From: Pandoraea thiooxydans
GTDB lineage: Bacteria > Pseudomonadota > Gammaproteobacteria > Burkholderiales > Burkholderiaceae
DNA: 64,000 nt
Assembly: GCF_001931675.1 (NCBI RefSeq)
Contig: NZ_CP014839.1
Span: forward strand, 2,356,001 to 2,420,000
Direction: 5' to 3'
Under the pieces are notes generated by a model. That model did no database searches and was not told the DNA's origin. It was given only the letters and a program-made list of their open reading frames with translations. Every line of letters begins with the position of its first letter. The first letter of the stretch is position 1. This document shows positions 7,211 to 51,336 of this stretch, piece after piece. Both the position numbers and the translations under genes were made by a program.

Positions 7211-7231
7211 CCGGCGCGCCGCCCCTCGAAT

Positions 7232-7266
7232 AAAAAACGCCCCCGAGCGGATCTCGCTCGGGGGCG
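7232..7266 (-). terminator. Rho-independent terminator of the mctP operon
   Basis: A perfect 12-bp stem (7238-7249 with 7255-7266, CGCCCCCGAGCG and its complement) around a 5-nt loop. On the minus strand it is followed by six T residues (7237-7232). It lies about 55 bp after the mctP stop and fits termination of that transcript. Confidence 0.85.
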
Positions 7267-7320
7267 CGGCCAATCGCCCCGTGATAATCAGGCGACTGGC
7301 AGACGACGGGGGTACCGTCC

Positions 7321-8853
7321 TTACTTACCGCTGGCCGTGTCCAGACGGGCGCGCGAGTCGCCCTGCACCAGACGGACCACCAAACTGACCGCCACCGCCA
7401 CGACGATGTTGATCGCCAACGACCAAACTGCCGCATAACCGGGAATCGCCATGCCACCCAGGTGAATCGTGTAGATCGACGACTTCAGATGCAGCGATGC
7501 GGCCATCCAGGTACCGGCAACGATACCGACCAACCAGCCCAGCAGCAGCCCGCGCGAATCGAGCACACGCGTGTAGAGGCCCAGCACGATCGCCGGCAGC
7601 GTCTGAATGATCCAGATGCCGCCGAGCAACTGCAGCTGCAGCGCATAGGTCAGGGGCAGGAACACGATGAACGCCAGCGCGCCGAGCTTGACGATCAGCG
7701 ACACCAGCTTCGCCACCTGGGTTTCCTGGTGAGCGGTCATGTCCTGCTTGACGTAGACGCGGTGAATATTGCGCGTGTACAGATTGGCTGCGGCAATCGA
7801 CATGATCGCGGCCGGCACCAGGGCGCCGATGCCGATGGCGGCAAACGCGACGCCGACGAACCACGACGGGAAGAAATGCAGGAACAGCGCCGGCACCGCG
7901 AAACTCGGCCCATAAGCCTTGAAGTACGGCACGAACTCCGGCATGTTCTGCAAACCCGCGGCCAGCGCCATGAAGCCCAGCAGCGCAAGCAGGCCGAGCA
8001 TGAACGTGTAGGCCGGCAGCAATGCCATATTGCGGCGAATCGTGTTGCCCGAGGACGAACTGAAAATCGCCGTGACCGAGTGCGGATAAAGGAACAGCGC
8101 CAGGGCCGAGCCGATCGCCAGCGTGGCGTACGCGCTATAGCCGTTCAGGCTGGCGGCGTCCGGTGCGTGCAACAGCAGTTTGGCCGGCGGTATCGCACTG
8201 AAGATATGCGCGAAGCCACCGAGCTGCGCCGGCACCACGATCACCGCCGCGCCGATCGTCACGTAGATCAGCAGATCCTTGACCACCGCGATCATCGCCG
8301 GCGCGCGCAGGCCCGACGAATACGTGTAGGCCGCCAGGATCGCAAAGGCGATGATCAGCGGCAGATCGCCCAGCGCGCCGTGCGTGTTGAAGCCAAGCGC
8401 GCCGATCACGGTTTCGATCCCGACCAGCTGCAAGGCGATGTACGGCATCGTCGCGACGATACCGGTGACCGCCACGGCCAGCGCCAGCGGCTTGCTGTTG
8501 AAACGACCCTGCACGACGTCGGCGGCCGTGACGTATCCGTGACGCTTGGCGATATGCCACAGCTTCGGGAACACCACGAAGGCAAACGGGTAGATCAGAA
8601 TCGTGTAAGGCAGCGCGAAAAAGCCGATCGCGCCGGCGCCGAACACCAGCGCGGGCACGGCGATGAACGTGTAGGCCGTGTAGATGTCGCCGCCCAGCAG
8701 GAACCACGTCACGATGGTGCCGAAGCGCCGCCCGCCCAGGCCCCACTCGTCGATCGAGCGCAGGTCGCCGCGGCGCCAGTGGGCCGCATAAAAGCCCATG
8801 ACCGTCACGGCCAGGAAAAACAGCACGAAAACCAGGGTAGCAGTTGCGTTCAT
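7321..8853 (-). CDS. mctP: Sodium:solute symporter family monocarboxylate permease
   Basis: A 510-residue sodium/solute symporter with about 13 membrane segments. The N-terminal part shows the SSF pattern: RSIDEWGLGGRRFGT, then FLLGGDIYTAYTF. It best matches the MctP class of monocarboxylate (lactate, pyruvate, propionate, alanine) uptake permeases. Two context points support this: a DUF3311 small membrane protein gene directly upstream with a 4-bp ATGA overlap, and a divergent histidine kinase/response regulator pair like the regulators found beside rhizobial mctP. The substrate call rests on family and context. Confidence 0.82.
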   Translation of the reverse strand: MNATATLVFVLFFLAVTVMGFYAAHWRRGDLRSIDEWGLGGRRFGTIVTWFLLGGDIYTAYTFIAVPALVFGAGAIGFFALPYTILIYPFAFVVFPKLWHIAKRHGYVTAADVVQGRFNSKPLALAVAVTGIVATMPYIALQLVGIETVIGALGFNTHGALGDLPLIIAFAILAAYTYSSGLRAPAMIAVVKDLLIYVTIGAAVIVVPAQLGGFAHIFSAIPPAKLLLHAPDAASLNGYSAYATLAIGSALALFLYPHSVTAIFSSSSGNTIRRNMALLPAYTFMLGLLALLGFMALAAGLQNMPEFVPYFKAYGPSFAVPALFLHFFPSWFVGVAFAAIGIGALVPAAIMSIAAANLYTRNIHRVYVKQDMTAHQETQVAKLVSLIVKLGALAFIVFLPLTYALQLQLLGGIWIIQTLPAIVLGLYTRVLDSRGLLLGWLVGIVAGTWMAASLHLKSSIYTIHLGGMAIPGYAAVWSLAINIVVAVAVSLVVRLVQGDSRARLDTASGK

Positions 8854-9488: not shown

Positions 9489-10907
9489 ATGTTGAGCGTC
9501 CCTATCCCCGGCCTGCGGCGCAAGCTGCTGCTGCTCGCGCTGCTGCCATTCATGATCGCCACGGCCATCATCGCCGTCGCCGTGGTGCTGCAGGCGCAAA
9601 CGCTGTCCAACTCGCAGCGACGCATCATCGCGGCGGCCTATCGCACCAGCAAGCAAGCCGAACTGCGGCATTACATGGATCTGGCGCAGAGCGCCATCGC
9701 GCCGCTTTATGATTCCGGCCGCAACGACCCCGCCACGCGCGAGCGCGCACTTCAGATATTGTCCAAGCTGGAGTTCGGCACGGACGGTTATTTTTTTGTC
9801 TATGACCTCAATGGCAAGTCGCTGATGCATCCGCGCCAGCCGGAACTGGTCGGTCAGAATCTTTGGTCGCTGCGCGCGCCGGACGGCACCTCGCCGATCC
9901 AGCGCCTGATCCACCGGGCCGAGCAAGGCGGCGGCTTTGTCGAATACCCGTGGCGGCGGCCCTCAACCCACCAGATCGAGCCGAAGCTCGGCTATGTGCT
10001 CAAGCTCGATCGCTGGGGGTGGATGATCGGCACCGGCATCTACCTGGACGATGTCACCGCGGCGCTGGCGCAGATCGACCAGCACGCGTCGATGAACATC
10101 AAACGCACACTGTTATGGATTGGCCTGACCGGCACCCTCGGCATGCTGGCGATCGGCATCTGCGGTCTGGCGCTCAATATCACCGACTGGCGCAGCTCCG
10201 ATGCCAAACTCAAGCTGCTCGCCAATCAGGTGGTGGAATCGCAGGAAGCCGAGCGGGGACGGCTCTCGCGCGAATTGCACGACGGCGTGAGCCAGATGCT
10301 GGTGTCGACCAAACTGCTGCTCGAGTCGGTGCCGGCTCACGCCGGGCAGGCAGGGGGCGATCCGGGCATGGTCGAGGCAACCATCGGCAAGGCGCTCGCG
10401 CAGATCAACCGGACATTGGGCGAAATCCGCCGTATCTCGCACGCGCTGCGCCCGTCGATGCTCGACGATTTCGGGCTGGCCGCCGCGCTGGTGCAACTCG
10501 GCACGGAATTCGGCGAGACCGGCTACATGCCGCGCGAAAACGTCGTCGTCGACGTCTCGGCCGCGCAGGGCAAATCATTGCCGGATTCGTTCAACACGAT
10601 ACTGTTTCGTATCGCCCAGGAAGCACTCTCCAATATCGCCCGCCATGCCTCGGCCAGTCGGGTCAAGATCGCGCTGGCGGTGCTGCCGCGCCAGGTCATG
10701 CTCAGCGTGATGGACAACGGGCAGGGGTTCGACAGCGAAGCGGTGCAGGCCGACGCGCAGCGCGGCATCGGCCTGCGCAACATGCGTGAGCGCGTCGAAT
10801 CGCTGGGCGGCTGCCTGCAGATCGACTCCAGCCCCGGACATACCGAGTTGATCGCGCTGATTCCCTACCATCCCGCGCAGCCGCAGACGGCCGCCGCCCT
10901 GACGTGA
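9489..10907 (+). CDS. Cache-domain sensor histidine kinase (NarL-type, HisKA_3)
   Basis: A 472-residue membrane sensor kinase. An N-terminal helix (LLLLALLPFMIATAIIAVAVV) is followed by a periplasmic single-Cache domain (about residues 40-195, with GTDGYFFVYDLNGKSLMHP and GWMIGTGIYLDDV). A second helix (about 205-225) leads to a HisKA_3 dimerisation domain with phosphoacceptor His264 in RELHDGVSQ. The HATPase domain has the G box MDNGQGFD and RGIGLRNMRERV. Single-Cache domains of this type commonly sense small organic acids, consistent with the divergent mctP permease. The stop overlaps the start of the response regulator gene (GTGA), so the two are coupled. Confidence 0.9.
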   Translation: MLSVPIPGLRRKLLLLALLPFMIATAIIAVAVVLQAQTLSNSQRRIIAAAYRTSKQAELRHYMDLAQSAIAPLYDSGRNDPATRERALQILSKLEFGTDGYFFVYDLNGKSLMHPRQPELVGQNLWSLRAPDGTSPIQRLIHRAEQGGGFVEYPWRRPSTHQIEPKLGYVLKLDRWGWMIGTGIYLDDVTAALAQIDQHASMNIKRTLLWIGLTGTLGMLAIGICGLALNITDWRSSDAKLKLLANQVVESQEAERGRLSRELHDGVSQMLVSTKLLLESVPAHAGQAGGDPGMVEATIGKALAQINRTLGEIRRISHALRPSMLDDFGLAAALVQLGTEFGETGYMPRENVVVDVSAAQGKSLPDSFNTILFRIAQEALSNIARHASASRVKIALAVLPRQVMLSVMDNGQGFDSEAVQADAQRGIGLRNMRERVESLGGCLQIDSSPGHTELIALIPYHPAQPQTAAALT

Positions 10908-11584
10908 AGCCCGAACCTGACATGACGCGCCTGCCTGCCCTGATCGATTTGCTGCTGGTCGACGACCATCCGCTGGTGCGCGACGGCCTGCGCCTGCGGC
11001 TCGATGCCATTGCCGGTCTTCGCGTGATTGGCGAGGCCGGTAATTTGACCGACGCGTTGCGGTTGATCGAGCAGACCCAGCCCCATCTGGTGCTCACCGA
11101 CATCAGCATGAAGGGCGGCAGCGGTATTGCATTGACCCAGGCGATTCATCAGAGGTACCCGAGCACGCGGGTGCTGGTGCTGTCGATGCACGACAATCGC
11201 GAGTATGCCGCGCAAGCCCGCGCGGCCGGCGCGCACGGCTACGTTCTGAAGGATTCGCCGGCCACGCAGATCGTCGAGGCGATCTACACCATCATGGGCG
11301 GCGGCACATTCTTCGCCGTCGACATGAGCGCGCCCACACCGGCGGGCGCCATGCACGGGCTGAGCGAACAATTCGCCGCACGCGAGATCGAAAAACTCAC
11401 GCGGCGCGAGCATGAAATTCTGCGTCATCTGGCCAATGGGCTCTCCAACAAGCAGATCGCTTCGCTGCACGGCCTGTCGGTGCGCACCGTCGAGACCCAT
11501 CGCATGTCGATCAAGCGCAAGCTGGATATCGACGGCCAGGCCGAACTGATCAAATTCGCCGTCGAATTCTTCAGCCAGTCCTGA
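10904..11584 (+). CDS. NarL/LuxR-family response regulator, partner of the Cache kinase
   Basis: A two-domain response regulator of 226 residues. The receiver domain shows LLLVDDHPLVRDGL, a phospho-acceptor Asp in VLTDISMKGG and the conserved lysine in VLKDSP. The C-terminal LuxR helix-turn-helix reads LTRREHEILRHLANGLSNKQ and SVRTVETHRMSIKRKL. Translation can begin at a GTG at 10904 that overlaps the kinase stop, or at an ATG at 10922; either gives a complete receiver. The likely role is activation of the divergent DUF3311-mctP transcript, by analogy with the two-component regulators beside mctP in rhizobia. Confidence 0.88.
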   Translation: MKPEPDMTRLPALIDLLLVDDHPLVRDGLRLRLDAIAGLRVIGEAGNLTDALRLIEQTQPHLVLTDISMKGGSGIALTQAIHQRYPSTRVLVLSMHDNREYAAQARAAGAHGYVLKDSPATQIVEAIYTIMGGGTFFAVDMSAPTPAGAMHGLSEQFAAREIEKLTRREHEILRHLANGLSNKQIASLHGLSVRTVETHRMSIKRKLDIDGQAELIKFAVEFFSQS

Positions 11585-40229: not shown

Positions 40230-40305
40230 GGGGCGTTAGCTCAGTTGGTAGAGCAGCGGACTCTTAATCCGTAGGTCGAGTGTTCGAGCCACTCACGCCC
40301 CACCA
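40230..40305 (+). tRNA. tRNA-Lys (anticodon CTT)
   Basis: A 76-nt cloverleaf. The acceptor stem GGGGCGT pairs with ACGCCCC. The anticodon loop CTCTTAA gives anticodon CTT, the T arm has GTTCGAGC and CCA is encoded. Its 3' part (40258-40305) is duplicated exactly at 51079-51126. It is the insertion site of the genomic island; the island copy keeps the gene intact. Confidence 0.97.
40258..40305 (+). repeat. Island attachment repeat, left copy (attL)
   Basis: A 48-bp sequence covering the anticodon arm to the CCA end of tRNA-Lys, identical to 51079-51126. Identity stops at both edges of the repeat, as expected for a site-specific recombination core. Confidence 0.9.
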
Positions 40306-40313
40306 AAGAATTC

Positions 40314-40344
40314 AAGGGCTTAGCAGCGATGCTAAGCCCTTTTT
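40314..40344 (+). terminator. Terminator after tRNA-Lys, island-borne
   Basis: AAGGGCTTAGCA (40314-40325) pairs fully with 40330-40341 around a GCGA loop, followed by T residues. It lies just inside the island and ends the tRNA transcript. The terminator originally behind the tRNA is probably the one at 51133. Confidence 0.85.
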
Positions 40345-41047
40345 CTTTGCTCTCGCGGGCTCGATTTTAGACATTGTCTAATATTCGAATTTGGCACTCC
40401 GTGGACTATCGTCGAGCGTCAAAACTTCCCCTTCCGCGCTGACGGCCGCCATGTCACGCATGCGCCCGCCTGCCAAGCGATTCACGTGCTCCCGCGCCTG
40501 GGTATCCGAACGCTGCCTTCGGGGCCTTACTGACGCGAATCGACCTGCTATAAATCAATGCCTTACGCAACTCGCAAGCCTCAAAACCAAGGCTGCACAG
40601 GTTCAATCAAGTCCATTCCATCGCACGCCAGCTGCAATTTAGCCGCAGGCCGGGCGTCATCTACCTGACTGTCGAATTGGCGGCAATTTGCCGTACCCGA
40701 GGCCGTGGCGCCAGGTACCCGGCGAGACGGCTACTGACCTTCAAAAATCCCACTCGCCGCCGTTTCGCAATAGTACCCGCCTGCTACGTCTTCATCCTCG
40801 GCCCGACAATATCCTTTCAACACTCCTAACGTATCGCTGAATTAAACTTTCAATTACCTCGGCAAAATCGCTGCCGGTACTGACGGGCTCGCTCGCAGTT
40901 GCTCCCTTGACAGCGTCATTCCAAGGTGATTAAGTATCGCCAACGACAAACTTAGACCAACGACGGCACGCGCAACAAGCACTATCTATCTACACCCCGG
41001 AAACGCGCCTCGTCGGTTACAACCACACTTCGTGGGACGGGGATATC
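40345..41047. other. Gene-poor left end of the island with a 15-bp palindrome
   Basis: About 700 bp without a convincing gene. TTAGACATTGTCTAA at 40367-40381 is a perfect inverted repeat (7-bp arms, 1-nt centre) close to the attachment repeat, a possible recombinase arm or repressor site. A minus-strand open stretch ending at the TAG beside 40381 reads REHVNRLAGGRMRDMAA and may be a gene remnant, but I cannot identify it. No integrase motif was found. Confidence 0.45.
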
Positions 41048-42118
41048 ATGCCAGACAGCTATGAGTTGGATTTTTTGGCCGTCGAGACGGATAAAAGTGG
41101 CGATGCAATTACCATTCGCTACGTCATCGATGGAATCGCCGGGGTGCACGTTGTAGACGGTGGTTACATCGATACTGGCGACACAATTATCGATCACATC
41201 AATACGCATTACGGTGTAACGCATGTTGACCACGTGATTCTAACTCACCCCGACCAAGACCACGCCAACGGCCTTCGAAAAGTCTTAGAAACACTTAGCG
41301 TTGGGACCTTATGGATAAACCGACCTTGGATATACGCAGAGCGCCTGCTTCCAAGGTTTGAAACATACACATCCGCTGAAGCGCTCCGCCGCAAATTACG
41401 CTCCACATATTCCGCCACGGCAGCACTGGAGGATATCGCAATAGAAAAAAACATTCCAATTCGCGATCCATTGCAAGGCGCAACAATAGGACCATTCCAT
41501 GTATTGGCCCCGTCTCTTAACAGATACTTAGATCTTGTTGTGCATTCCGAAAAGACGCCGGAAGCGGCGCAGGAAAGCACACTTGCGACAATCTTCGACG
41601 GCTTTTTCAAGGCGGCAAAGTCCATAGCAAATTTCATTAAGGGCGCATGGGGCGATGAGAATTTTCCCGAGGATGGCACGAGCAATGAAAATGAAATGAG
41701 CGTCGTTCAGTTCGCTGAAATTAATGGAAAGCGCATACTACTCACCGGCGACGCGGGGCGAGACGCACTTAATGAAGCAGCAGATTACGCACCTACCATC
41801 GGACTAACGCTCCCCGGTGTCTACGAATTTCAGGTTCCTCACCATGGCGGGAGACACAATGTAAGCACGGAGGTCCTCGACCGCTGGCTCGGTCCGCGAC
41901 TTGAGGACCAGCCGGAGAAGACAACATGGCGAGCGGTCTGCAGTTCGGCCAAGGCTGACGAGCATCATCCGCGTAAGGTCGTGATACGGGCTATGGTCCA
42001 TAGAGGCGCATGGTTTGGAGCTACAGAGGGTCGCTCAATTCTCCTGTCCAGCGGCATCACTCGCGAGGGATGGACCTCCATTCCTCAAATCGATTACCCC
42101 CCGGAATTTGAGGAATAA
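41048..42118 (+). CDS. ComEC-type metallo-beta-lactamase-fold hydrolase
   Basis: A 356-residue soluble protein of the MBL fold. The metal motif THPDQDHANG (His67, Asp69, Asp71, His72) matches the ComEC/Rec2 nuclease-like branch, where Asp replaces the second His. ILLTGDAGRDAL and FQVPHHGGRHN are the later ligand motifs. There is no ComEC membrane channel. GGGG lies about 6 nt before the ATG. The gene ends 6 bp before a membrane-protein gene, so the two form an operon. Codon use is poorer in G/C-ending codons than the flanks. Nuclease, phosphodiesterase or lipid hydrolase activity is possible. Confidence 0.82.
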   Translation: MPDSYELDFLAVETDKSGDAITIRYVIDGIAGVHVVDGGYIDTGDTIIDHINTHYGVTHVDHVILTHPDQDHANGLRKVLETLSVGTLWINRPWIYAERLLPRFETYTSAEALRRKLRSTYSATAALEDIAIEKNIPIRDPLQGATIGPFHVLAPSLNRYLDLVVHSEKTPEAAQESTLATIFDGFFKAAKSIANFIKGAWGDENFPEDGTSNENEMSVVQFAEINGKRILLTGDAGRDALNEAADYAPTIGLTLPGVYEFQVPHHGGRHNVSTEVLDRWLGPRLEDQPEKTTWRAVCSSAKADEHHPRKVVIRAMVHRGAWFGATEGRSILLSSGITREGWTSIPQIDYPPEFEE

Positions 42119-42124
42119 CTATTC

Positions 42125-42931
42125 ATGGCGCTAGGTGCCCTAATCGAGCAGATTCGCGACCCTTATCAGCAAAAGGCTCGTGTTTTTCCCGGATTATTGA
42201 CTGTGCTCCCGCTATGTGTCCCATTGCTATGGCTGCTGGGGCCGCACAACCCTCTGCTTACAGCACTACTAACCTTGCTTACGAGTTGCGGGGCAATATA
42301 CGGTTTAGCTAGCGTAGCTCGTGGTCGCGGAAAAAGGCTCGAAGAGAAGTTACTGCTTCGATGGGGGGGAATGCCAACAACAATACTTTTGAGGCATCGC
42401 GACACATTCCTCGACGACTACACTAAAAATCGTTACCGTGCCGCGATAAAGGCTAAGCTTGGCGTTGATCTTCCGACGGCACAAGATGAGGCGCAAGATC
42501 CGGCTGCCGCAGACCGCTTATACAGTGGGGTTACGCGGCACTTGAGAGAGCTCACCCGCGGCAAAGAACACTCTCTGCTTTTGAAAGAGAACATCGCGTA
42601 CGGCTTTCATAGAAACATGCTCGCAATGAAACCTCTTGGAGTGTCCACGAGTCTTGTGGGTATAGCAGTCGGGCTATTCCTTAGCGAGACCCTTCAATTC
42701 TCCCCATTTCGCATACACCCGGGAAAATTGCTGTCCCCGGGGGCGGTCGGTGGAATCACGCTCTTCGTCGCGACGGCGGTTTTGATATCTTGGATGTACT
42801 TCACCGAGGCGCACCTGAAACGCATCGGATACGTGTATGCAGAACGGCTCTTTGAATCAATTGCAGGACTTCAGTCGCGGCGCGCCCGCAGCAAGGCGAC
42901 AGCGCCGGCAGCAAAGTCGACAGAAGTTTGA
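42125..42931 (+). CDS. Multi-pass membrane protein paired with the MBL-fold protein
   Basis: A 268-residue protein. Two hydrophobic segments near the N-terminus (FPGLLTVLPLCVPLLWLL and LLTALLTLLTSCGAIYGLA) are followed by a cytoplasmic loop of about 110 residues rich in charge (ILLRHRDTFLDDYTKNRYRA). Two further segments (STSLVGIAVGLFLSETL and GGITLFVATAVLISWMYF) precede a basic tail. No family is recognised. The 6-bp gap after the MBL gene shows co-expression. The layout suits a membrane effector or anchor for the MBL-fold protein; this is inference. Confidence 0.72.
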   Translation: MALGALIEQIRDPYQQKARVFPGLLTVLPLCVPLLWLLGPHNPLLTALLTLLTSCGAIYGLASVARGRGKRLEEKLLLRWGGMPTTILLRHRDTFLDDYTKNRYRAAIKAKLGVDLPTAQDEAQDPAAADRLYSGVTRHLRELTRGKEHSLLLKENIAYGFHRNMLAMKPLGVSTSLVGIAVGLFLSETLQFSPFRIHPGKLLSPGAVGGITLFVATAVLISWMYFTEAHLKRIGYVYAERLFESIAGLQSRRARSKATAPAAKSTEV

Positions 42932-43242
42932 TCTGTCGCATGCTGGGTCCAGGCGCATCAAATTGCACGATTTCCGCATCGCTGGAATTGCGGAGAAGTC
43001 CGCCGTGCGAGCATCGTACAGTGTGACGACTCAATGCATCAAAACCGCGCAGTCAACACCCCACTCAGGCGGGGACGGGGACTGCGTATTTCAACACAGC
43101 TCGCGATTGGTCGCGCCTGCACGCCGACAGCGGCCCCGAAGCAGGGCCCAGTCTCACATACTGGGGGTACCGAGAACCTAAGCGTCGACGGCTAGCGCTC
43201 CCGGTCGACCGGGACCGTATGTTCCGGTAATCTTGGCCGGTG

Positions 43243-43530
43243 TCACCTTCCGGCATAAAGGAGCCGGGTATTTCCGGCATATAGGCGCCAGTAGAAGCGG
43301 GTAGGAACGAGCCCCTTGCGCGGCGAGCCCAGCGCCGCGGCGATCTCCGAGTCATCCGGTAACGGCGCATCGGGCTTGAGCCAGCCGCGTTGCTCGGCCA
43401 ACTCGCGCAGTGCAGCGAGCTTGCGTCGGCCCATGTAGCGACAGCGCGCCAGCTCGCGGTCGGAATCCCCGTGGCGAATGCGCACGAGAACCTGTCGATA
43501 GTGGTGCATCTCGATTCTCCGTCGGCTCAT
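43243..43530 (-). pseudogene. istA: istA fragment (IS21-family transposase N-terminus)
   Basis: MSRRRIEMHHYRQVLVRIR followed by GDSDRELARCRYMGRRKLAA matches the N-terminal helix-turn-helix of IS21-type IstA transposases, which are about 500 residues long. After roughly 80 codons the frame runs into the terminal repeats of the element (LYAGNTRLLYAGR), so the catalytic DDE domain and istB are deleted. The frame also has an open extension of ten codons upstream of the ATG at 43530. Confidence 0.75.
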
Positions 43531-43610
43531 CGCAGCCTCCCTTGGGGGATCACGCCCCAAAGGGTAAGCCGACGATGAACGTCACCATCGAGATGCTCGG
43601 TACCGCCCCT

Positions 43611-43710
43611 GGCTCCTATATGCCGAAAATCGGCTGGCTCCTTTATGCCGGAAACGAAGTGGCTCCTTTATGCCGGAAGCCCGGTGGCTCCTATATGGCG
43701 GAAGATGACA
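43611..43710 (+). repeat. Four tandem 25-bp repeats at the right end of the IS21 remnant
   Basis: Units start at 43611, 43636, 43661 and 43686, each beginning GGCTCCTATATG or GGCTCCTTTATG and continuing with CCGG-type sequence. They are exactly contiguous. IS21-family ends carry such repeats as transposase-binding sites. Confidence 0.8.
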
Positions 43711-43828
43711 CCGTCCCGCTCGAACAGGTCATCGTTCATTTTCCATTCAAAATTGGGCCACTTTTACCAGCTTTGGGCGGTGGTCGCCGTCGTGTTCGGT
43801 TTCCATTGTGTCTCCGCATCACGCGCCG

Positions 43829-44563
43829 TTACGCCTGGTGCGCCGCAGCCTGCTTTGCTGCATCGTCCGCCTTGCGCGCCAGTGCCATGTCGACCAGTTC
43901 GAGCTGGTAGTTGTAACGACCGAGCACGACCTTTCTGAGGGCCGCGCCGATCGACAATCCAAACACCAGTGCGATCCCCCAAAGCAGCATGGTGTTTGCC
44001 CAGTTGTCGGGCGTGAATCCTCGAAGAAACGTGTCGTGCAGCCACGCCCGCCCTCCCGCGTCCTTGACATTCGTGATCGTCACTGCCGCGATCGACCACA
44101 GCGCCGCGCTACTGCCAAACACAAGCCCGACGGGGGCGTCTAGGCGCTTAACTTTGAGTTGAAGCCAGGCTTGGGCTCGCCCGAGCGTCGCCTTATCGTA
44201 TCGCGCAAACTGCGCCACGTGCCGCTCGTCATTTTCGATTTCGCGTTGAAACGTCTCAAGGGTGTGCGTCTTCCAGCGCCACAAGAGCCGGAGCATCGCA
44301 TAAGGCTCAATCAGCATTGACGCCAAGGCCAGAAACATCGTGAAGAGGGCAAGCACCGCGCCTATCAGCCGCAGAGGTGGCCAGGATGCCAAGTGGTACG
44401 AGTAGGCCGTAATCATTAGCAATACGAGGGCTGCCGCGCCTAGGCCGAGCACGAGCACCGACAGTTTCCGGTACCGTTGCATATGTGCGCTGTTTGCGGG
44501 CCGGTACGGCTCGGCGCCGGCAAGTTTCTTCAAGAAGTCCTGGATGTCCCGAATGTCCTTCAT
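43829..44563 (-). CDS. Hypothetical membrane protein with four predicted helices
   Basis: A 244-residue protein. Two helices near the N-terminus (LSVLVLGLGAAALVLLMITA and LIGAVLALFTMFLALASML) are followed by a charged central region of about 60 residues (WRWKTHTLETFQREIENDER). Two more helices (PVGLVFGSSAALWSIAAVTI and NTMLLWGIALVFGLSIG) precede a short cytoplasmic tail. AGGAG lies 6 nt before the ATG. The overall 2+2 helix layout with a central soluble part resembles the membrane protein at 42125, though I see no clear sequence match. Function unknown. Confidence 0.7.
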   Translation of the reverse strand: MKDIRDIQDFLKKLAGAEPYRPANSAHMQRYRKLSVLVLGLGAAALVLLMITAYSYHLASWPPLRLIGAVLALFTMFLALASMLIEPYAMLRLLWRWKTHTLETFQREIENDERHVAQFARYDKATLGRAQAWLQLKVKRLDAPVGLVFGSSAALWSIAAVTITNVKDAGGRAWLHDTFLRGFTPDNWANTMLLWGIALVFGLSIGAALRKVVLGRYNYQLELVDMALARKADDAAKQAAAHQA

Positions 44564-44918
44564 TGCATCTCCTCGCTGATGAATAGCTGCGCGGGTAGCT
44601 CATCCGCCCGATGCAAATTGACGCGTCAGGGCGCATTTCCCGGCGATATCGGGACGTGGCGTCGGCCACCAAAATTGCAAGGGTCGGATGGTAAACTTGG
44701 AGTGGAGTCGCCACATCTGCTCACCCGCCTTGCACGGGTAGCGAATTCGCCTGTCAACTTCTGTCGTTCCTCTATGCTTCGAAGGAACGCCCGCCGAGCA
44801 GCGCGTCCGCCCGCAGTAGCATCCCCAGTCACCGAGCGATCAACCAGGACTTGAACCCGAGCGCACCGCTCTACAAACTGACGGCCAGCGCCGCTAGCGT
44901 ATGTAATCCATTCCCCCC
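44564..44918. other. Gene-poor stretch beside the IS66 remnant
   Basis: 355 bp with no credible gene. It carries only the promoter and ribosome site of the minus-strand membrane-protein gene and, further right, sequence that may be decayed insertion-element DNA. Nothing else is recognised. Confidence 0.4.
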
Positions 44919-45243
44919 TTAGCTGCGGGTTTCATGAACCACAGCCACCGGAATCAGCGACGTCGTCTGGGCCTGCAATTGCTCGCGATAGCGACGCCGC
45001 CACGTGAACAGCATGTTTGCATTGATGCCATTCTCGCGCGCCAGCTTTGCGACCGAAGCACCCGGCTCGCATGCCGCGGCCGCAAGACGGCGTCGAAACT
45101 CGCGATCATAGTTTGGGCACCCCTTGCCTACCCGGCCTGGCTTCTGGCTCTGTCACAGTGATGTCCATCAAATCGAAATTGATGGGCACCACTTTGATGT
45201 CGGTTCTCGCCGTCGTCTATGACGGTCGTCGTGAGGCGCTTAC
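44919..45243 (-). mobile_element. IS66-family remnant: left end and broken tnpA
   Basis: On the minus strand the element begins at 45243 with GTAAGCGCC, the typical IS66 terminal sequence. A tnpA (IS66 orf1) gene starts at ATG 45168 (MDITVTEPEARPGRQG) but hits a stop after a frameshift near 45110. The continuation in the next frame reads YDREFRRRLAAAACEPGASV and NGINANMLFTWRRRYREQ, the conserved helix-turn-helix of IS66 TnpA, and ends at 44919. tnpB and tnpC are absent, so this is a dead fragment. Confidence 0.75.
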
Positions 45244-45307
45244 CTCTCAATCGACCGACGCCCACTGATAAACGACGCGTGCCAGCGCGGTCGAACTGCT
45301 TTATGTC

Positions 45308-45616
45308 GTGCGTGACGAGGCAGTGTTCGACTTCGGTGATCAAGTTCGGGTTGTCCGACTGGACAACAGTGCAGCGCAAGTTGGCGAAGTCGGGCGCCTG
45401 GCGCTATTCCACACCGAGCACGGCGAACGATGGCAGTTTCGCCCCTATCGATCCGGCACTTGGCGCAGAGCGCCCGAGCTGGACACGCCGTCAAGCTGGA
45501 CTTGGCGCTGTATAAAAACCGGCGACTTCACTGCCACAGCAATCGGTGTCCTGCCGAGTCATACCCCAGCCGCTCATCTTCCACCTGAAGATGACAACAA
45601 CGGGTTCCCGTTTTAA
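45308..45616 (+). CDS. Small unknown protein, first of a tandem paralogous pair
   Basis: An open frame of 102 codons from a GTG. It is clearly related to the ORF at 45826: FDFGDQVRVVRLDNSAAQ against FDFNDELQLVQLDSNEAL, then VGRLA, QFRPYR, TWRR, SW-WRCI and TG in the same spacing. Conservation at protein level supports this strand and frame. Resemblance of the translation continues a few codons upstream of the GTG (ELLY against ELCY), so the true start may lie upstream, or both may be 5'-truncated pieces of a longer gene. No family is recognised. It begins 65 bp from the IS66 end. Confidence 0.55.
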   Translation: MRDEAVFDFGDQVRVVRLDNSAAQVGEVGRLALFHTEHGERWQFRPYRSGTWRRAPELDTPSSWTWRCIKTGDFTATAIGVLPSHTPAAHLPPEDDNNGFPF

Positions 45617-45825
45617 CGAAGGACACAGGAGGGCAAATCGCCCTCCTGTTTTGATTTTCCCTTGCCCCAGTAGGCATCTGGCGCGGTAATCCCACCCACT
45701 GGACGCGAGGATTACCCAAGCCGTAACGTAGATCTATCAATGGAAAACATTCCGCAATCGCCAAGGCATGTAACCTGCGATTTTGTCTTGATGCTGAACT
45801 CTGCTATACCAGACGAAACCAGACA

Positions 45826-46116
45826 GTGTTCGACTTCAATGACGAATTGCAACTTGTCCAGCTCGACAGCAATGAAGCATTGGCGGGCACCGTAGGGCGC
45901 CTCGCGGCGTCCCACACACCATTTGGCGAACGCTGTCAGTTCCGGCCCTACCGGTTCCAAACCTGGCGCAGGGTGTCGGGTTTGGATACGGCCCCGAGTT
46001 GGGCGTGGCGCTGTATTGAAACGGGTGAACTCACAACTACGTCGATCGGTTCTGTGCCAAGCTATGCACCAATCGCGCTACCACGATCGGGTGATATGGA
46101 CGATCTGCAGTTTTAA
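45826..46116 (+). CDS. Small unknown protein, second of a tandem paralogous pair
   Basis: A 96-codon frame beginning GTG TTC GAC TTC, matching the first copy from its VFDF onward (about 60 percent alike by eye over 75 residues). Conserved points are VGRLA, GER-QFRPYR, TWRR, LDT, SW-WRCI and TG. The C-terminal ends differ. The two copies are about 500 bp apart in the same orientation, so a local duplication is likely. There is no membrane segment or signal peptide. Placed directly before the second MBL-fold gene, it might be a regulator or partner; this is unsupported beyond position. Confidence 0.55.
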   Translation: MFDFNDELQLVQLDSNEALAGTVGRLAASHTPFGERCQFRPYRFQTWRRVSGLDTAPSWAWRCIETGELTTTSIGSVPSYAPIALPRSGDMDDLQF

Positions 46117-46254
46117 TACCAACACAGAAATCGACGCCCGCAGTCAGCAGCCTGACTGCACGGCAATATTCCGCAGTGTAATATTCGTCTCGAACAGCAA
46201 AAACAGAAATGATAAATCAGTGGTTCGTATGCTGCAACTGGGCGGTTTCGGGGA

Positions 46255-47652
46255 ATGAGAATGGGAACTTTTCACGTTGATAGGGTTCAGTACCCCGTCG
46301 GTCAAGGCGGCTTTCATTCGATGACAATTCACATCGGAAGCCAGCGGTTCAGCGTGGTAGTGGATTGCGGCGGAGGCAAAGAGGAACATCGCAAAGTCTA
46401 CGTCGACGCGTTCGCTACTGGTAACAAGAAGCACGATGTGCTCGCGATTAGCCATCTAGACTGGGATCACATTGGCGGGATTGGCTCCCTGGCGCGCTCG
46501 GGGGTTCAATTCGCGAACGTATTCTTGCCGCACGTGGACGAGCACGTGTACGCACGGTGGATGACGACGCGTCTAGCATATGCCATGTCGGATATCGATG
46601 TGGGTGAAATCGGAGAGGCTGTCGATTATCTGGGTGGGCTGTATGGAGGACGGTATGGGCGGCCTGTCCGGGTAGTCCCGGGCGATGGTGGGGACCTGCC
46701 GCCCGGAGACGAGCCGCCGGACCGGCACGAGACCAGCCGAGAGCATCCGCCCGTCTCGGGTCTGCTGGCCGAAGATATCCAGGAACAACTCGAGCGTATA
46801 ACGGCCCGGCAAGGATTTCCGGCAAAGCGTTCGTTGACCTTCAGTTTTCTCGACTGGGTTTTGCGGTTTTACTCATGGGAGTGGACCTGTCCGGATGAGA
46901 TTACGCAGATCTGGAAATTGCCAGTCCTGCAACAGCTTGCCGACTCATTACGAGCGCTGGTGCGCAATGGCTTCCAGGACGACACGACGGCGCTGATTGC
47001 TGACGTGGTCGACGCGCTCAAGGCCAAAGTCTCGGCTGACGACGCGACCAGCGCGATCAAGCACGTTCGCACGGGCCGCGTATCAAAGCAAAAGGCAATG
47101 ACCATCAAGACCCTGTTGGGCAAACTGTATGAGGCCTCGCCGACCCTGGAGAACTATAACGACGCTTCGCTATGCGTTTATGCGGGGCCTTCGCCTCGCG
47201 GAGTCAACGTCCCCCACACGGGGTTCGTGCGACGTATAGAAACCAAGGGGCAACGCGTGAATCTACATCCGGACCGCGCTGCTGTATCCCTGCGGGCAGT
47301 CGGCTGGATGCATACGGGTGATGCTCATCTCGACGCACCCCGACTAGGGCAGTTCGCTGAGCACTACCGGATTGAGTTGCCGTTGACTTCGGTGCTTGTA
47401 TTGCCTCATCACGGGTCGCGGAGGAGCTACGGCCCGAATCTGACAGAGTTCGATGCGCTGGCCGCCGAAATGCCTAAGCGGCCTCTCTTCGTCGCTGCCG
47501 CGCAGCCTGACCATCAGCGGTATGGTCATCCGCACAGTGCTGTGGTCGCGCGATGCCTAGATCATGGTGTGCTTCGCATTGTGGACGATCGCCCGGGCTC
47601 GCTGCTGGAGGATTCGGTCTGTGTCCGAGGTTTTCATTATTGGTTCGTCTGA
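46255..47652 (+). CDS. Second ComEC-type MBL-fold hydrolase, with large insert
   Basis: A 465-residue protein. The metal motif ISHLDWDHIGGIG (His67, Asp69, Asp71, His72) and the late motif LVLPHHGSRRSYG define a ComEC-type MBL fold. Between them lies an insert of over 200 residues (about 110-330) containing a Pro/acidic stretch (GDGGDLPPGDEPPDRHETS) and an alpha-helical part, not present in the other two MBL proteins of the island. PDHQRYGHPHSAVVARC near the end supplies a further His pair. Starts at 46255 or 46261 differ by two residues. Function is unknown; hydrolysis of a phosphodiester is expected from the fold. Confidence 0.8.
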   Translation: MRMGTFHVDRVQYPVGQGGFHSMTIHIGSQRFSVVVDCGGGKEEHRKVYVDAFATGNKKHDVLAISHLDWDHIGGIGSLARSGVQFANVFLPHVDEHVYARWMTTRLAYAMSDIDVGEIGEAVDYLGGLYGGRYGRPVRVVPGDGGDLPPGDEPPDRHETSREHPPVSGLLAEDIQEQLERITARQGFPAKRSLTFSFLDWVLRFYSWEWTCPDEITQIWKLPVLQQLADSLRALVRNGFQDDTTALIADVVDALKAKVSADDATSAIKHVRTGRVSKQKAMTIKTLLGKLYEASPTLENYNDASLCVYAGPSPRGVNVPHTGFVRRIETKGQRVNLHPDRAAVSLRAVGWMHTGDAHLDAPRLGQFAEHYRIELPLTSVLVLPHHGSRRSYGPNLTEFDALAAEMPKRPLFVAAAQPDHQRYGHPHSAVVARCLDHGVLRIVDDRPGSLLEDSVCVRGFHYWFV

Positions 47653-47914
47653 TCCCGCTCGATGTGAGATGAGCCGGATTGCAGGTCGCATCGATCCAGC
47701 CAGCGATCCGTTTCATAGATACAAGTTACGCCTGTGCGATGCAGAGATGTGACCACGAAGAGTTGGGCGGTGATCGCCAGCTGTCTCATTGGCACAAAAT
47801 TAACGCAAAGTCTAGTGGTTTCCACCAAGTAGTGAAATTTTACTATCCATGTCTCAATTATGCGAACGCGAGACATTAAACAAAGACCATGAGCAATTTC
47901 TTAAGCGGGGTTCA

Positions 47915-48907
47915 ATGAAGCTCTCAGAAATACTGGCCAACAACCGGCCGACAGCAAAATCCGTTCGAACGCGATTCCGCGCATATAAACTAGGGACGGC
48001 AGGATCCCTGTGCTCCTACTTCGCCGGTGGCCACTTTACGCTCATTGAGGCGATGGATAGCTCGGTGAGTCGGAGTAGTTTGCAGGAGGAGTTGAGGATT
48101 TGCGGAAAAAGCCACATTGATACGCTGCATATCACCAGCTGGGACAATGACCATTGCGAGACGAATGCCCTGGAGTGGATCCTGAAGACGCTCCAGCCCG
48201 AGCGAATTGAGACGCCCGGATACGTACACGACACGCAATGTGCCAGGGATTGCCTGGACTTGATAGGCAAGTACAGGACTGCGCGGGCTAATTCGGGAAA
48301 AGCGGCAAAGGTTGTTTCCGTAACGCCAGACTACATATCGAGTCTCGAACCATCTGTGGTTCTTGGGTATCGCAATATTTTTTACCATCCAAAAACCATC
48401 TACGAAAAATCGAACAATAATTCAAGCGTGAAGTTTTTTAGAACTGGTTCATTTAACGTCCTGAGTACCGGTGACATCGAGCATCATGACATCGGAGCCT
48501 ATCTCCGACGTTGCAACAAGTTGCGCCGTGAGATTGACGTGCTTTTACTTCCCCATCACGGTGGTCCGGTGGACTTGATGACTGCGAAATTTCTCGAGGA
48601 ACTGAAACCGAGCCTGGCGGTATGCACGTCCAATACGGCAAACCAGCATGATCACCCAGATCAGTCGATCAGGGACCTGCTGAGCGATCAGCGGATCCCG
48701 TTGATGACCACGAAGCGCGGAGACGTGATCATCGAGTCGACCGGCAGCCACATCAGCAAATATAGGGCAACCGACCTGCTTTCCGATGGAAAGAGTTCTC
48801 AGGAAGATCTCTGCTTTACGGCGCGCAAGTTCGATCTTCTGTCGAAAAACGGCGACACGATCCGGGACCGACTCGATCACCAGAACACTGGCCCCCGCCG
48901 TCGCTAG
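47915..48907 (+). CDS. Third ComEC-like MBL-fold protein, altered first metal motif
   Basis: A 330-residue protein starting MKLSEILANNRP. The first metal motif reads TSWDNDHCETN: the first His of HxDxDH is Ser75, while Asp77, Asp79 and His80 are kept. The later motifs LSTGDIEHHDIG and LLLPHHGGPVD are intact, and NQHDHPDQSI supplies the final ligand region. One metal site may be weakened. An upstream ATG at 47849 would add 22 residues; the start at 47915 is preferred because GGGG precedes it and it begins the conserved part. It converges on the patatin gene 40 bp away. Confidence 0.77.
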   Translation: MKLSEILANNRPTAKSVRTRFRAYKLGTAGSLCSYFAGGHFTLIEAMDSSVSRSSLQEELRICGKSHIDTLHITSWDNDHCETNALEWILKTLQPERIETPGYVHDTQCARDCLDLIGKYRTARANSGKAAKVVSVTPDYISSLEPSVVLGYRNIFYHPKTIYEKSNNNSSVKFFRTGSFNVLSTGDIEHHDIGAYLRRCNKLRREIDVLLLPHHGGPVDLMTAKFLEELKPSLAVCTSNTANQHDHPDQSIRDLLSDQRIPLMTTKRGDVIIESTGSHISKYRATDLLSDGKSSQEDLCFTARKFDLLSKNGDTIRDRLDHQNTGPRRR

Positions 48908-48947
48908 TTGATAAGGCCGCGTGACTAGTGGGGGCTGTTAAAGGACG

Positions 48948-50117
48948 TCAATCCAGCGGCCACTCTCTCATCGGGAGTACACCGGGCAACGCGCCGGGGC
49001 CCAGCACATAACGACGCATGGCTGCGTCAGTTAGCGCGTAACCCCAGTTTATGAGGTGGCCCCGCTCCCGGGGCGTGAAGCGATTCAGTCGTGTGCGAAC
49101 GTTTTGCAGTGAAGCGGTTATCTTATTGTCGGCGGCAATAGCATCCGGCAACTCAAAGTCACCGATTCTAGTCTTCATTCGCCAGTACGCCCCTTTCTTG
49201 CGAGAGACTGCATTCGGCCCGCTGGAATCGGGGTTGACGCTCAGGTCGTCCATCAACCTCCGTCGACGCAGGGCTCGCGTCTGCTCGGTTACGATGTCCA
49301 TCGCGCGCAGCGTCTGACTAAACCAGTTGCGTGGGGGATTCGAGACCGGAGACAGCGGCGCTCCAGCGTCGCATGCCAATACGGTGGAGCATCGCTCCAG
49401 GGCCTGAAGTCCAATATTGTCGTAGACCCCACCGTCGGTCAGCACCATGCGCCGACGAAAATCTTCGCGTTCGTACAGGTCGGCACCCTTGGTCCTTACC
49501 CATTTCGTCGGATCGAGATCGAGTGTCGACGGAGATAAGAAGGGCGGAAACGCGCTGGATACGGCGACAACTTTTGCGACAGATAGATCGGGATTCGGAA
49601 TCTCGCCGATCCGGTAGTCCCCCAGACGCTTGCGTTCGATTCGTACACTCACGCCAGTCTGCAAGCTGGTGGCGTAAAACAGAAACCGCGGGATCATACC
49701 CGGTACGGGTTCAGGTATGTCCCTCTGCAGGGTAGCGCCCGAAAACAGGTGTCTGTCGTAGGCGCGGGCAACTACGTCGGACACCGTGTGACAGGGCGAG
49801 AGAAGACCTTGGCAAATGGCCGGGGAATCAATCGTCCTGTCCGCAAACTCGATGAGCGGTCGCGCGATGACTGTCTCGAAATTGGTCGCCACACTGTTCG
49901 TCCATGCCAGCTGTTTCCAACGTGTGGCTAGGACTGCGTTGGTGATGGACCCACCCGAAACGCTCGTGATCATGTCAATTCTTGGCAGCCATCCCAAATC
50001 ATTTAGCCGCCACAGACTGCCCAGATCGAAGAGCATGGCCCGAAATCCCCCTCCGGCCAGTGCCAGCCCGATATCGACCTTGCCTGGCATATGGTTTCCC
50101 TGTCGTACTGCCGTCAT
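48948..50117 (-). CDS. Patatin-like phospholipase
   Basis: A 389-residue patatin-domain lipid acyl hydrolase. The oxyanion motif ALAGGGFRAM is at residues 19-28. The nucleophile Ser54 lies in SVSGGS (the usual first Gly of GxSxG is Ser). The catalytic Asp is in VLTDGGVYDN near residue 245. No membrane segment is evident. GGGGAA lies before the ATG at 50117; an ATG nine codons later (50090) is an alternative. Patatins are common toxic effectors in anti-phage systems such as CBASS, but no cyclase gene is present here. Confidence 0.85.
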   Translation of the reverse strand: MTAVRQGNHMPGKVDIGLALAGGGFRAMLFDLGSLWRLNDLGWLPRIDMITSVSGGSITNAVLATRWKQLAWTNSVATNFETVIARPLIEFADRTIDSPAICQGLLSPCHTVSDVVARAYDRHLFSGATLQRDIPEPVPGMIPRFLFYATSLQTGVSVRIERKRLGDYRIGEIPNPDLSVAKVVAVSSAFPPFLSPSTLDLDPTKWVRTKGADLYEREDFRRRMVLTDGGVYDNIGLQALERCSTVLACDAGAPLSPVSNPPRNWFSQTLRAMDIVTEQTRALRRRRLMDDLSVNPDSSGPNAVSRKKGAYWRMKTRIGDFELPDAIAADNKITASLQNVRTRLNRFTPRERGHLINWGYALTDAAMRRYVLGPGALPGVLPMREWPLD

Positions 50118-50529
50118 TTGATTTCCCCGATCGAATCTGCCTTCTTTTAATCGTCCAATTATGGACTGGTGCAAGCATTGTGCACCTTCAGCTAAGGGAG
50201 CGCCACGCTCGACAATCGCGCCATCTCGGTTTTCATAAATGAAAATATCGTCCGCCAGCGCGGGCCTGTGGCTATATCGGCAAAAGCAGGAGGATCATTG
50301 GGAACCTGTACTTCCCAAATCGCGCGGATGTCCTGTTCCCGATATCAGCAATTTGATTGGTTACCCTATCCCTTTCAGCGCTTGAGATCACCAGACTCGT
50401 CCACATCGCCACTCCGTCTTCGTGCGAAACGGAGGCATTCAACCGTTCAGCATATCTTCGGTGAAACAACGCCGCTTGTGCGTCGCAAATTTTCCTTCTG
50501 TAATCGTCAAGGACTGAAGTCGTGTGTAG

Positions 50530-50937
50530 TCACCAACAGCTCCATATGAGTTGCCGTCTCATTCCGAAATTGGGCGATCGGCCTCGACGCCCCGGAGGAT
50601 GGTCAGAGACAGGACAGGTAACGTCCGCATTCCTTCCCGGCTCGAGCACGGCAATCCCGAGGTTGTCAAAGCCGCCACCATCGGTTAGCACTACCTTCTC
50701 TATCGATCGCTCGCCATTCCTTTCGAAAAGGTACTTTTCGGCTAGGGGCGGTAGAAGGAGCGGAAACGCCGCCGACGCCGCTACTGCCCGGGCCACTGGA
50801 ATGTCAGCAGTCACGATGCGGCCGTACCGCCATCCACCCGATGTCACGGAGCCAAGCCGCCCCTCCCGGTCCGGCCTACTTACAGAATCCGAACGTGCTA
50901 GCCAACTCGTGCCTTCCGCGAATGTACGAGCTGACAT
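50530..50937 (-). pseudogene. Broken patatin-like phospholipase gene
   Basis: The minus-strand frame carries only the second half of a patatin domain: VARAVAASAAFPLLLPP and KVVLTDGGGFDNLGIAVLEPG, matching PDLSVAKVVAVSSAFPPFLS and VLTDGGVYDNIG of the intact gene upstream in the island. The nucleophile half (GGGxR and GxSxG) is missing, and the sequence loses similarity after about residue 105, probably by frameshift. A further open minus-strand stretch down to 50272 may be the decayed C-terminus. The gene is non-functional as a lipase. Confidence 0.65.
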
Positions 50938-51078
50938 AGCGCCACCTTGTCCGAAACGTGTCCAAAGTAGGCAGAAGTCGACCGAAAAAGATCAAAAAGC
51001 GCAGCTGGTTGATGGGCGGCTACCGATGCAAGTCATTGATTCGACTGCACTTTAATTTCTGCCTATTTACGGGAAGCA

Positions 51079-51126
51079 GGACTCTTAATCCGTAGGTCGA
51101 GTGTTCGAGCCACTCACGCCCCACCA
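51079..51126 (+). repeat. Island attachment repeat, right copy (attR)
   Basis: Identical over 48 bp to tRNA-Lys positions 40258-40305. There is no acceptor 5' half, D arm or promoter beside it, so it is a tRNA fragment and not a second gene. It is followed by the terminator that probably belonged to the tRNA before integration. Confidence 0.9.
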
Positions 51127-51132
51127 GAATAC

Positions 51133-51165
51133 AAAAGGGTTTGCGAGCAATCGCAAACCCTTTTT
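51133..51165 (+). terminator. Terminator behind the right attachment repeat
   Basis: A 14-bp perfect stem (51133-51146 with 51151-51164) around a GCAA loop; the right arm ends in a run of five T residues. It lies 6 bp after the tRNA fragment, the normal place for a tRNA terminator, and marks the return to core DNA. Confidence 0.88.
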
Positions 51166-51336
51166 CATTTTCGGCGCTGAAAACCCGCCGACGCTCCCGC
51201 AGGCACTATCGATACGACGGCAAGCCGACCACGCTGGTCGCGCAACGCGGCGCTCGATCCTGCCGGTCGTCGCACCCGCTCCTCGCCCAGTCGATCCGGC
51301 CCGGCATCAGCAGCGCTTCAGGCCAATCGCATTCAT

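Follow-up and report, generated by a model that had tools for sequence, protein, structure and literature searches.

What does the gene cargo of a decayed mobile island in Pandoraea thiooxydans encode? The island occupies positions 40306 to 51126 of the window, the 64,000-nucleotide stretch analyzed here (contig NZ_CP014839.1, positions 2,356,001 to 2,420,000 of the forward strand; G000:C1:2356001-2420000), which belongs to a 4.46-Mb genome assembled in one contig. The original prediction listed three metallo-beta-lactamase (MBL)-fold open reading frames (ORFs), two membrane proteins, a patatin-like phospholipase, and a paralogous pair of small ORFs, all of which were confirmed as ORFs or profile matches. 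We find that the island carries two separate gene-pair modules, one consisting of MBL1 and the membrane protein TM1 and the other of MBL3 and the patatin PAT. In the reading that we favor, with a probability of about 60%, both are minimal two-gene antiphage modules in which an MBL enzyme is combined with a membrane-acting effector, and they act by abortive infection in the manner of cyclic oligonucleotide-based antiphage signaling systems (CBASS). That MBL1 and TM1 form a conflict system is well supported; for MBL3 and PAT, the support for the same view comes from fewer cases.

MBL1 (positions 41048 to 42118, plus strand) encodes a 356-amino-acid ComEC-type MBL-fold protein of the PDC-M48B family. 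TM1 (42125 to 42931, plus strand) starts 6 bp past the MBL1 stop codon and encodes a 268-amino-acid membrane protein of partner group A (see below), the presumed MBL1 effector. Profile scans (Pfam, PADLOC, and NCBIfam) covered 10 island proteins. MBL1 matched the PADLOC profile PDLC04676 (PDC-M48B) over its full length (residues 1 to 356; E = 1.8e-151) and Pfam Lactamase_B with an E value of 2.4e-6, and both HxDxDH and PHHG are present. Seven residues (H67, D69, D71, H72, D235, H265, and H266) were invariant in 31 of 31 aligned MBL1 proteins, and the metal-ligand motifs are intact. TM1 has three predicted transmembrane (TM) segments (four in relatives) and a conserved central soluble region, and it matched no Pfam, PADLOC, or NCBIfam family at an E value of 0.1. 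The search of defense-system collections thus placed MBL1 and left TM1 without a match. Between the window and Burkholderia arboris, the proportion of nonsynonymous differences (pN) was 0.14 for MBL1 and 0.20 for TM1, and that of synonymous differences (pS) was about 0.81 (pN and pS are reported because the synonymous rate, dS, was saturated). The low pN relative to pS indicates that both genes are under purifying selection.

The best solved relatives of the MBL1 profile, by sequence, were ComEC MBL domains (PDB 9ic4, E = 1.3e-16; PDB 30bt, E = 3.1e-14), and the protein also matched the ComEC model TIGR00361 of NCBIfam (E = 1.4e-7). By sequence, MBL1 and MBL3 belong to the same MBL subfamily as ComEC/Rec2; unlike ComEC/Rec2, the island MBLs have no competence channel domain and are separate small proteins paired with a TM protein or a patatin. 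Partial matches of MBL1 pointed to LmuA (E = 1.1e-16, residues 16 to 278), RTasMBL (E = 8.3e-12), Avs1a (E = 1.3e-9 in NCBIfam), and the 6A-MBL model. The Avs1a score was 37.3 bits against a cutoff of 420, and no ORF of the size of the large NTPase lies in the island; likewise, there is no SMC-size ORF that could be LmuB of Lamassu. Among the island ORFs, the largest of which encodes 465 amino acids, we saw no STAND NTPase, SMC-type LmuB, or reverse transcriptase as in the Avs1, Lamassu, and reverse transcriptase-associated MBL systems.

Relatives of MBL1 were found in 27 genome contigs, 44 plasmid records, 4 phage records, and 2 viral contigs. We examined 50 MBL1-family loci: all of these genome and viral contigs, 12 of the plasmid records, 2 of the phage records, and 7 genome loci. 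Of the 50, 48 carry a gene for a small membrane protein. In this count, the partners of L086 and L099 were recognized by hand, the match in L027 is a fragment, and the queries themselves included the P2 partner and eight from plasmids, all picked by inspection. The two loci without a partner were L013, whose contig ends 132 bp past the match, and L042, where MBL1 is truncated beside IS66. Half of the loci (25 of 50) come from one lineage, in which the cap2_3 gene of the operon discussed below is 83 to 100% identical and the 6A core mostly separates the TM gene from MBL1, at a distance of about 4.5 kb, so that the 48 cases do not stem from 50 independent events. In one locus, L026, a second MBL gene (9496 to 10359; PDLC04674, E = 3.9e-58) follows MBL1, a transposase gene, and a TM1 homologue, which brings two PDC-M48B types together.

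To compare this association with a base rate, we used a control set of 20 of the 50 loci, most of them picked after the partner had been seen, and counted as a partner any ORF of 140 to 320 amino acids with at least two hydrophobic segments and at most 400 bp away. The set omits the 25-locus lineage, whose TM gene is usually too distant to pass, as well as L026, L027, L042, L078, and L080. Such a TM ORF lay next to the MBL1-family gene in 19 of the 20 loci (in the twentieth, L096, a partner was found by tblastn), compared with 5 of 47 ORFs of at least 250 amino acids elsewhere in the same loci (P = 3e-11 [by Fisher's test]) and 3 of 31 in the window flanks. A partner-blind sample gave the same picture: with a Microvirga MBL1 relative as the query, 7 of 398 genomes matched, and all six besides the window's own had an adjacent TM partner. 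MBL1 itself was found in 2 of 300 genomes of the window's order, one being the window's own, and the family is therefore rare and scattered.

The membrane partners are not one protein family. By blastp (E < 1e-3) among 28 proteins, the partners fell into at least five groups: A (TM1-like; 11 proteins), B (7 proteins), C (PDC-M48A; 5 proteins), a group formed by the L086 partner and the Escherichia coli plasmid protein L118, and the L099 partner alone. Group C includes the L033 protein, which joins by a single weak link and has a weak Csx27 match (E = 1.2e-4), and one group B member weakly matched the CBASS 2TM effector model (E = 9.6e-4). Proteins matching PDC-M48A have three to four predicted TM segments. 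We rejected a single superfamily of TM partners: groups A and C had no profile similarity (hhalign probability, 0.3%), and groups A and B gave a collinear but insignificant alignment (hhalign probability, 3.2%; E = 0.014). On a maximum-likelihood tree of 31 MBL1 proteins, well-supported branches force at least five partner changes for group A, at least four for B, and at least three for C. Partner and enzyme lineage are thus uncoupled, with the proviso that a crude label could add changes.

The island pair resembles PDC-M48, a candidate system in PADLOC-DB 2.0.0, in that an MBL protein (PDC-M48B in the case of MBL1) has a small TM partner. It differs in that TM1 is not PDC-M48A, having no PADLOC match at an E value of 0.1 and an hhalign probability of 0.3% against an alignment of four PDC-M48A-type proteins, and the MBL1 family has at least four partner groups beyond PDC-M48A. 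The literature searched, a scope that left out preprints, most subscription papers, and supplementary tables, gave no description of PDC-M48, of 6A-MBL by that name, or of an MBL-TM pair.

The near-constant membrane partner could also mean that the four-TM protein anchors the MBL at the inner membrane and that the two work together as a divided ComEC-like apparatus, breaking down phage or plasmid DNA during its entry with no need for cell suicide. This is the main rival to our reading. The ComEC MBL domains as closest solved structures, the partner in 48 of 50 loci, and the presence of the pair on plasmids and prophages, which gain by excluding rivals, are all consistent with it. Such dissimilar partner groups (no profile similarity between A and C and at most a weak one between A and B) would, however, be odd for a specific docking scaffold. 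Also against it are a relative of the L086 TM partner that stands beside a 6A core without MBL1 and the MBL3 module, in which a patatin replaces the TM partner and the MBL lacks a metal ligand. We consider a tethered nuclease unlikely.

The pair travels with mobile and defense-associated elements. In an E. coli prophage (L120, 6001 to 7589), the replication gene and the portal gene flank an MBL1 relative with a PDC-M48A gene, and in phages D8 (L079, 558 to 2146) and P24E6b the pair lies beside the replication gene. According to the accessible part of Rousset et al. 2022 (PMC9122126), the gpA-gpQ interval of P2-like phages, where these pairs lie, is a hotspot of antiphage systems; table S5B of that paper may list the P2 pair. 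Nucleotide matches to the P2-borne pair were found in 44 of 5,426 complete E. coli genomes, on chromosomes only, with 21 at an identity of at least 99% and 23 at 60 to 80%. In the phage record L080, the MBL protein is labeled a tail protein. In L086 (G292:C1:481500-494600), an MBL1-family gene and a 175-amino-acid TM gene (5489 to 7097) are situated between cas3 and cas5 of a type I-C CRISPR-Cas operon with Pfam matches to Cas3, Cas5, Csd1, and Cas7. The pair was also found on plasmids of 5.5 and 9.9 kb and near restriction or SIR2 genes.

A further context is the 6A-MBL operon, which appears as row 6a in the accessible part of Iyer et al. 2006 (PMC1779556) and which NCBIfam names antiphage. 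Its core, the 6A-MBL enzyme and an E2-E1-JAB fusion (cap2_3), was present in the fetched flanks of 28 of the 50 MBL1-family loci, and the TM partner was present in 27 of these 28 (all except L013, where the core is cut by the contig end; in L020 it is in pieces). In the remaining 22 loci, no core was detected with the queries used. In L011, the core matched NF058524 (E = 1.1e-133) and NF058523 (E = 4.9e-165) of NCBIfam, as it did in L036 and L038, and the gene order is TM and WYL on the minus strand followed by 6A-MBL, cap2_3, and MBL1 on the plus strand, with 4.5 kb between MBL1 and its partner. Core presence requires four changes on the MBL1 tree; the Herbaspirillum locus L024, which has no core, is nested among core loci and thus appears to have lost the core but kept the pair. 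The L086 TM partner is related (47% over 98 amino acids; E = 2e-35) to a 172-amino-acid protein whose gene, on an E. coli plasmid, neighbors WYL and the 6A core; no MBL1 was found in the fetched 12 kb of that plasmid. One TM group therefore accompanies the 6A core in one place and MBL1 in another.

The island holds TM and patatin genes of the kinds seen beside the 6A core. Two queries each for cap2_3 and for the accessory WYL regulator gave no match in the window, and one cap2_3 query gave in the whole genome only a weak E1-like match to the E1 part (E = 0.003, 27% identity). None of the three island MBLs reached the 6A-MBL_enzyme cutoff of 220 bits (MBL1, 25.5; MBL2, 12.6; MBL3, 16.4). Elsewhere, MBL1-type and TM genes adjoin the core, and so do MBL3 and a patatin in Gluconobacter. 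The statement that no known complete system is recognized in the island accordingly needs some qualification, given the full-length PDC-M48B match of MBL1 and the association of both modules with the 6A-MBL operon in other genomes.

Might the genes have no immune role, serving envelope stress or lipid turnover and residing on mobile elements by chance? Phage protection by the related Bub operons, which are presumably of the same kind as the 6A-MBL operon, is stated to be undemonstrated in the accessible part of a 2026 paper (PMC13373217), which leaves room for such a function. The locations in the P2 defense hotspot and in a CRISPR-Cas operon, the sparse distribution (2 of 300 and 7 of 398 genomes), and the co-occurrence with an operon that NCBIfam names antiphage speak against it, and we regard a nonimmune function as improbable.

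The arrangement of the genes bears on how the enzyme would control its partner. MBL1 and its partner are codirectional in 13 of the 20 control loci and convergent or divergent in 7 (L024, L031, L032, L033, L034, L079, and L099). Hydrolase brakes are known in immune operons, and the MBL could be one, constantly destroying an activating ligand or silencing a toxic membrane protein until infection lifts the brake, much as in toxin-antitoxin systems. The tight coupling in the window (a 6-bp gap) and the codirectional majority fit this, the shared direction fitting a trigger or a brake, and patatins and TM proteins need control. Convergent or divergent pairs are unusual for an antitoxin, however, the partner can be as far as 4.5 kb away (L011), and the MBL of the 6A operon occupies the position of the cyclase in CBASS. 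A brake therefore seems to us a rather unlikely arrangement. We prefer a trigger over a brake on the strength of two of these observations, the CBASS cyclase position held by the 6A operon MBL and the 7 of 20 convergent or divergent pairs.

The second module comprises MBL3 (47915 to 48907, plus strand), a 330-amino-acid variant ComEC-type MBL whose ATG at 47915 lies inside a longer ORF from 47849, the latter also being a possible start, and PAT (48948 to 50174, minus strand; an ATG at 50117 is also possible), a patatin-like phospholipase and presumed effector. The two genes are convergent and 40 bp apart. PAT matched Pfam PF01734 (E = 3.6e-14, residues 37 to 258) and has the active-site motifs SVSGGS and TDGG. 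MBL3 had no Pfam MBL match; its C-terminal half matched ComEC (TIGR00361 of NCBIfam, E = 1.4e-10; PDB 9ic4, E = 6.5e-6). The three MBLs had been predicted to share HxDxDH and PHHG, which is true of MBL1 and MBL2. MBL3 keeps PHHG, and its first motif reads TSWDNDHC, with the first histidine missing; its homologues in L044 and L045 have TSWD-x-DHC.

The Gluconobacter plasmid pGOX1 (L044) has the same convergent layout as the window, with a patatin gene facing an MBL3 homologue (identical at 142 of 306 aligned residues); cap2_3 (E = 5.7e-182) and the 6A enzyme (E = 4.5e-118) adjoin this patatin. On an Arsenophonus plasmid (L045), the MBL3 homologue (140 of 308 identical) is convergent with a gene for a PDC-M48A protein (E = 5.3e-45); this PDC-M48A-type TM gene (6968 to 7477) is annotated as a phosphohistidine phosphatase. 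In Mesorhizobium AR10, an MBL3-like gene (27% identity; GFDNDH, the first histidine also missing) lies between a patatin gene and E1/E2 genes. PAT itself shares 43% identity with a patatin encoded after cap2_3 in an Agrobacterium 6A-MBL operon. MBL3 relatives were present in seven plasmid records, three of which cover most of the protein. Among 398 genomes, 24 matched; besides the window's own, only G540 holds a clear relative, and the other 22 matches were weak, 21 of them in 620- to 900-amino-acid frames resembling ComEC. Viral contigs gave no matches to MBL3 or MBL2. Rhizobial PAT relatives in L082, L083, and L084 stand beside caspase, S8 peptidase, CHAT, and phospholipase D genes, neighborhoods that suggest protease-patatin conflict systems.

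Under the two-module reading, an infection-specific substrate would activate the MBL enzyme. The substrate would most likely be a nucleic acid or a nucleotide, as judged from the ComEC kinship of the enzyme. The MBL product, or the enzyme itself, would switch on the membrane effector, TM1 would permeabilize or PAT would hydrolyze the inner membrane, and the infected cell would die ahead of phage release. Patatins and small TM proteins are among the known CBASS effectors. CBASS likewise has an optional E1/E2/JAB module; in the island, an MBL enzyme stands in place of the CD-NTase, and no CD-NTase profile match was found among the 10 island proteins. A CBASS comparison of the 6A-type operon is drawn in the accessible part of PMC13373217. 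In architecture, the pairs would relate to the 6A-MBL operon as type I CBASS (effector plus cyclase) does to type II (with Cap2/Cap3).

Several points weigh against this reading. The 28 core loci contain MBL1 alongside the 6A enzyme, so it is no simple replacement for that enzyme. Partner labels need 12 changes on the MBL1 tree compared with a shuffled mean of 12.4, meaning no extra clustering; partners must then be exchanged very often, or part of the labels are crude. The missing metal ligand implies that MBL3 may not be catalytic. The MBL3-patatin association comes from two loci (the window and L044) and, more weakly, from L045 (where the partner is a TM protein) and L081 (in an E1/E2 operon). 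Among 46 plasmid records with a PAT relative, at least 5 adjoin cap2_3 and at least 1 more lies within 5 kb of it, a lower bound given that adjacency was counted against 60 of 250 cap2_3 records. The other PAT relatives inspected were found beside caspase, S8 peptidase, or CHAT genes, in rhizobial MBL clusters, or with no such neighbor (Streptomyces, L047), and patatins of this type are thus not tied to MBL systems. Control could run in either direction, with the MBL as a trigger or as a brake. Finally, genomic context is what suggests a defense role for the family members; the literature examined held no activity, toxicity, or phage test.

The remaining genes of the island joined neither pair. 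MBL2 (46255 to 47652, plus strand) encodes a rare 465-amino-acid MBL-fold protein with HLDWDH and PHHG and a Lactamase_B match (E = 1.2e-5). Its membership in either pair had no support, and its best relatives are rhizobial plasmid genes. Of six plasmid records with relatives, four matched 38 to 49% of MBL2 and two only its N-terminal quarter; among 249 genomes of the family, the matches besides its own genome were three weak ones in 860- to 870-amino-acid frames resembling ComEC. Rhizobial plasmids L040 (5003 to 15502) and L041 (4429 to 12297) carry a patatin, an MBL2-like gene, and one or two further MBLs beside a 650- to 720-amino-acid protein. TM2 (43829 to 44563, minus strand; GC content at third codon positions [GC3], 0.74) encodes a 244-amino-acid protein with four TM segments and showed no relationship to TM1 or other partners at an E value of 0.01. 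The small paralogous ORFs SMA (45308 to 45616, plus strand) and SMB (45826 to 46116, plus strand), which are 56% identical, were considered as a partner pair and set aside; outside the genome they gave only weak matches (4 of 150 genomes, including the window's own).

Could all these genes nevertheless form one large system of three MBLs, TM2, the small ORFs, and the patatin? They are physically close, and on L040 and L041 an MBL2-like gene and a patatin gene are about 4 and 5 kb apart. On the Sinorhizobium plasmid L042, an MBL2-like gene (6329 to 7591), with a longer match at 28% identity, is separated from a truncated MBL1-like gene (10303 to 11172) by about 3 kb that include an IS66 element. 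These are hints of shared neighborhoods only. Transposon remnants separate the gene sets in the island, and homologues of MBL1 and TM1 and of MBL3 and the patatin occur without the other genes. As these homologues travel separately, we rejected a single three-MBL system, which is very improbable. Of the one or several conflict systems first proposed, two pairs remain, both of which keep their neighborhood in other genomes; MBL2, TM2, and the small ORFs are without a demonstrated partner.

The placement of the whole set within one mobile island was borne out. The island sits between an intact tRNA-Lys(CTT) gene (40230 to 40305, plus strand) and a 48-bp direct repeat of the 3' half of that tRNA (51079 to 51126, plus strand). 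In G340, the nearest of 31 genomes of the genus searched, tRNA-Lys is followed directly by the right-flank sequence (51127 to 51173); positions 51079 to 51173 are 99% identical to G340 over 95 bp, and the left flank, upstream of the tRNA gene, is 89% identical. Integration at tRNA-Lys is well supported by these comparisons, short of a clean empty-site proof, since the G340 contigs break at this site, probably within a tandem array of tRNA-Lys genes. In many of the species sampled from the genus, tRNA-Lys is present in two or three tandem copies about 130 bp apart, an integration-prone arrangement. GC content in the island ranges from 0.52 to 0.62 per kb (41 to 51 kb), and low values also occur elsewhere in the window (e.g., 0.51 at 57 to 58 kb). 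GC3 is 0.53 to 0.65 in the MBL, TM1, and patatin genes, compared with 0.85 in glnA and 0.70 in a major facilitator superfamily (MFS) gene outside the island. No integrase was recognized by eye among ORFs of at least 80 amino acids, with 10 island proteins profiled. A transposon remnant (43220 to 43720) has four 25-bp direct end repeats and inverted GGCTCCTTTATGCCGGAA copies, its ends being 18 to 25 bp and of the GGCTCCTTTATGCCGGAA type; we take it to be probably IS21-like, and its ORF (43243 to 43560) had no match in Pfam, PADLOC, or NCBIfam. A fragment of a second patatin gene (50530 to 50937, minus strand) lies beside the right tRNA repeat and resembles PAT (PF01734, E = 0.0024, below the cutoff).

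A broader and more tentative idea, possible in our view rather than probable, is that ComEC-type MBLs constitute a general class of immune triggers parallel to CD-NTases. They would occur as a minimal "type I" pair with a swappable effector (a four-TM protein, PDC-M48A, or a patatin) and as a "type II" 6A-MBL operon, with the core controlling the pairs in mixed loci, and the effector would open in response to a nucleotide or oligonucleotide signal produced or set free by the enzymes.

With these results, the PDC-M48-type candidate, known so far from a profile library, can be described as a defined two-gene unit with a conserved active site and at least five alternative partner groups, found in two defense contexts, the P2 hotspot and the interior of a CRISPR-Cas operon. 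They also connect the little-described, ubiquitin-like 6A-MBL operon with compact mobile pairs. Should the enzyme be the trigger, a natural phage locus of 1.6 kb would make it possible to test in E. coli what such an immune MBL detects and produces.

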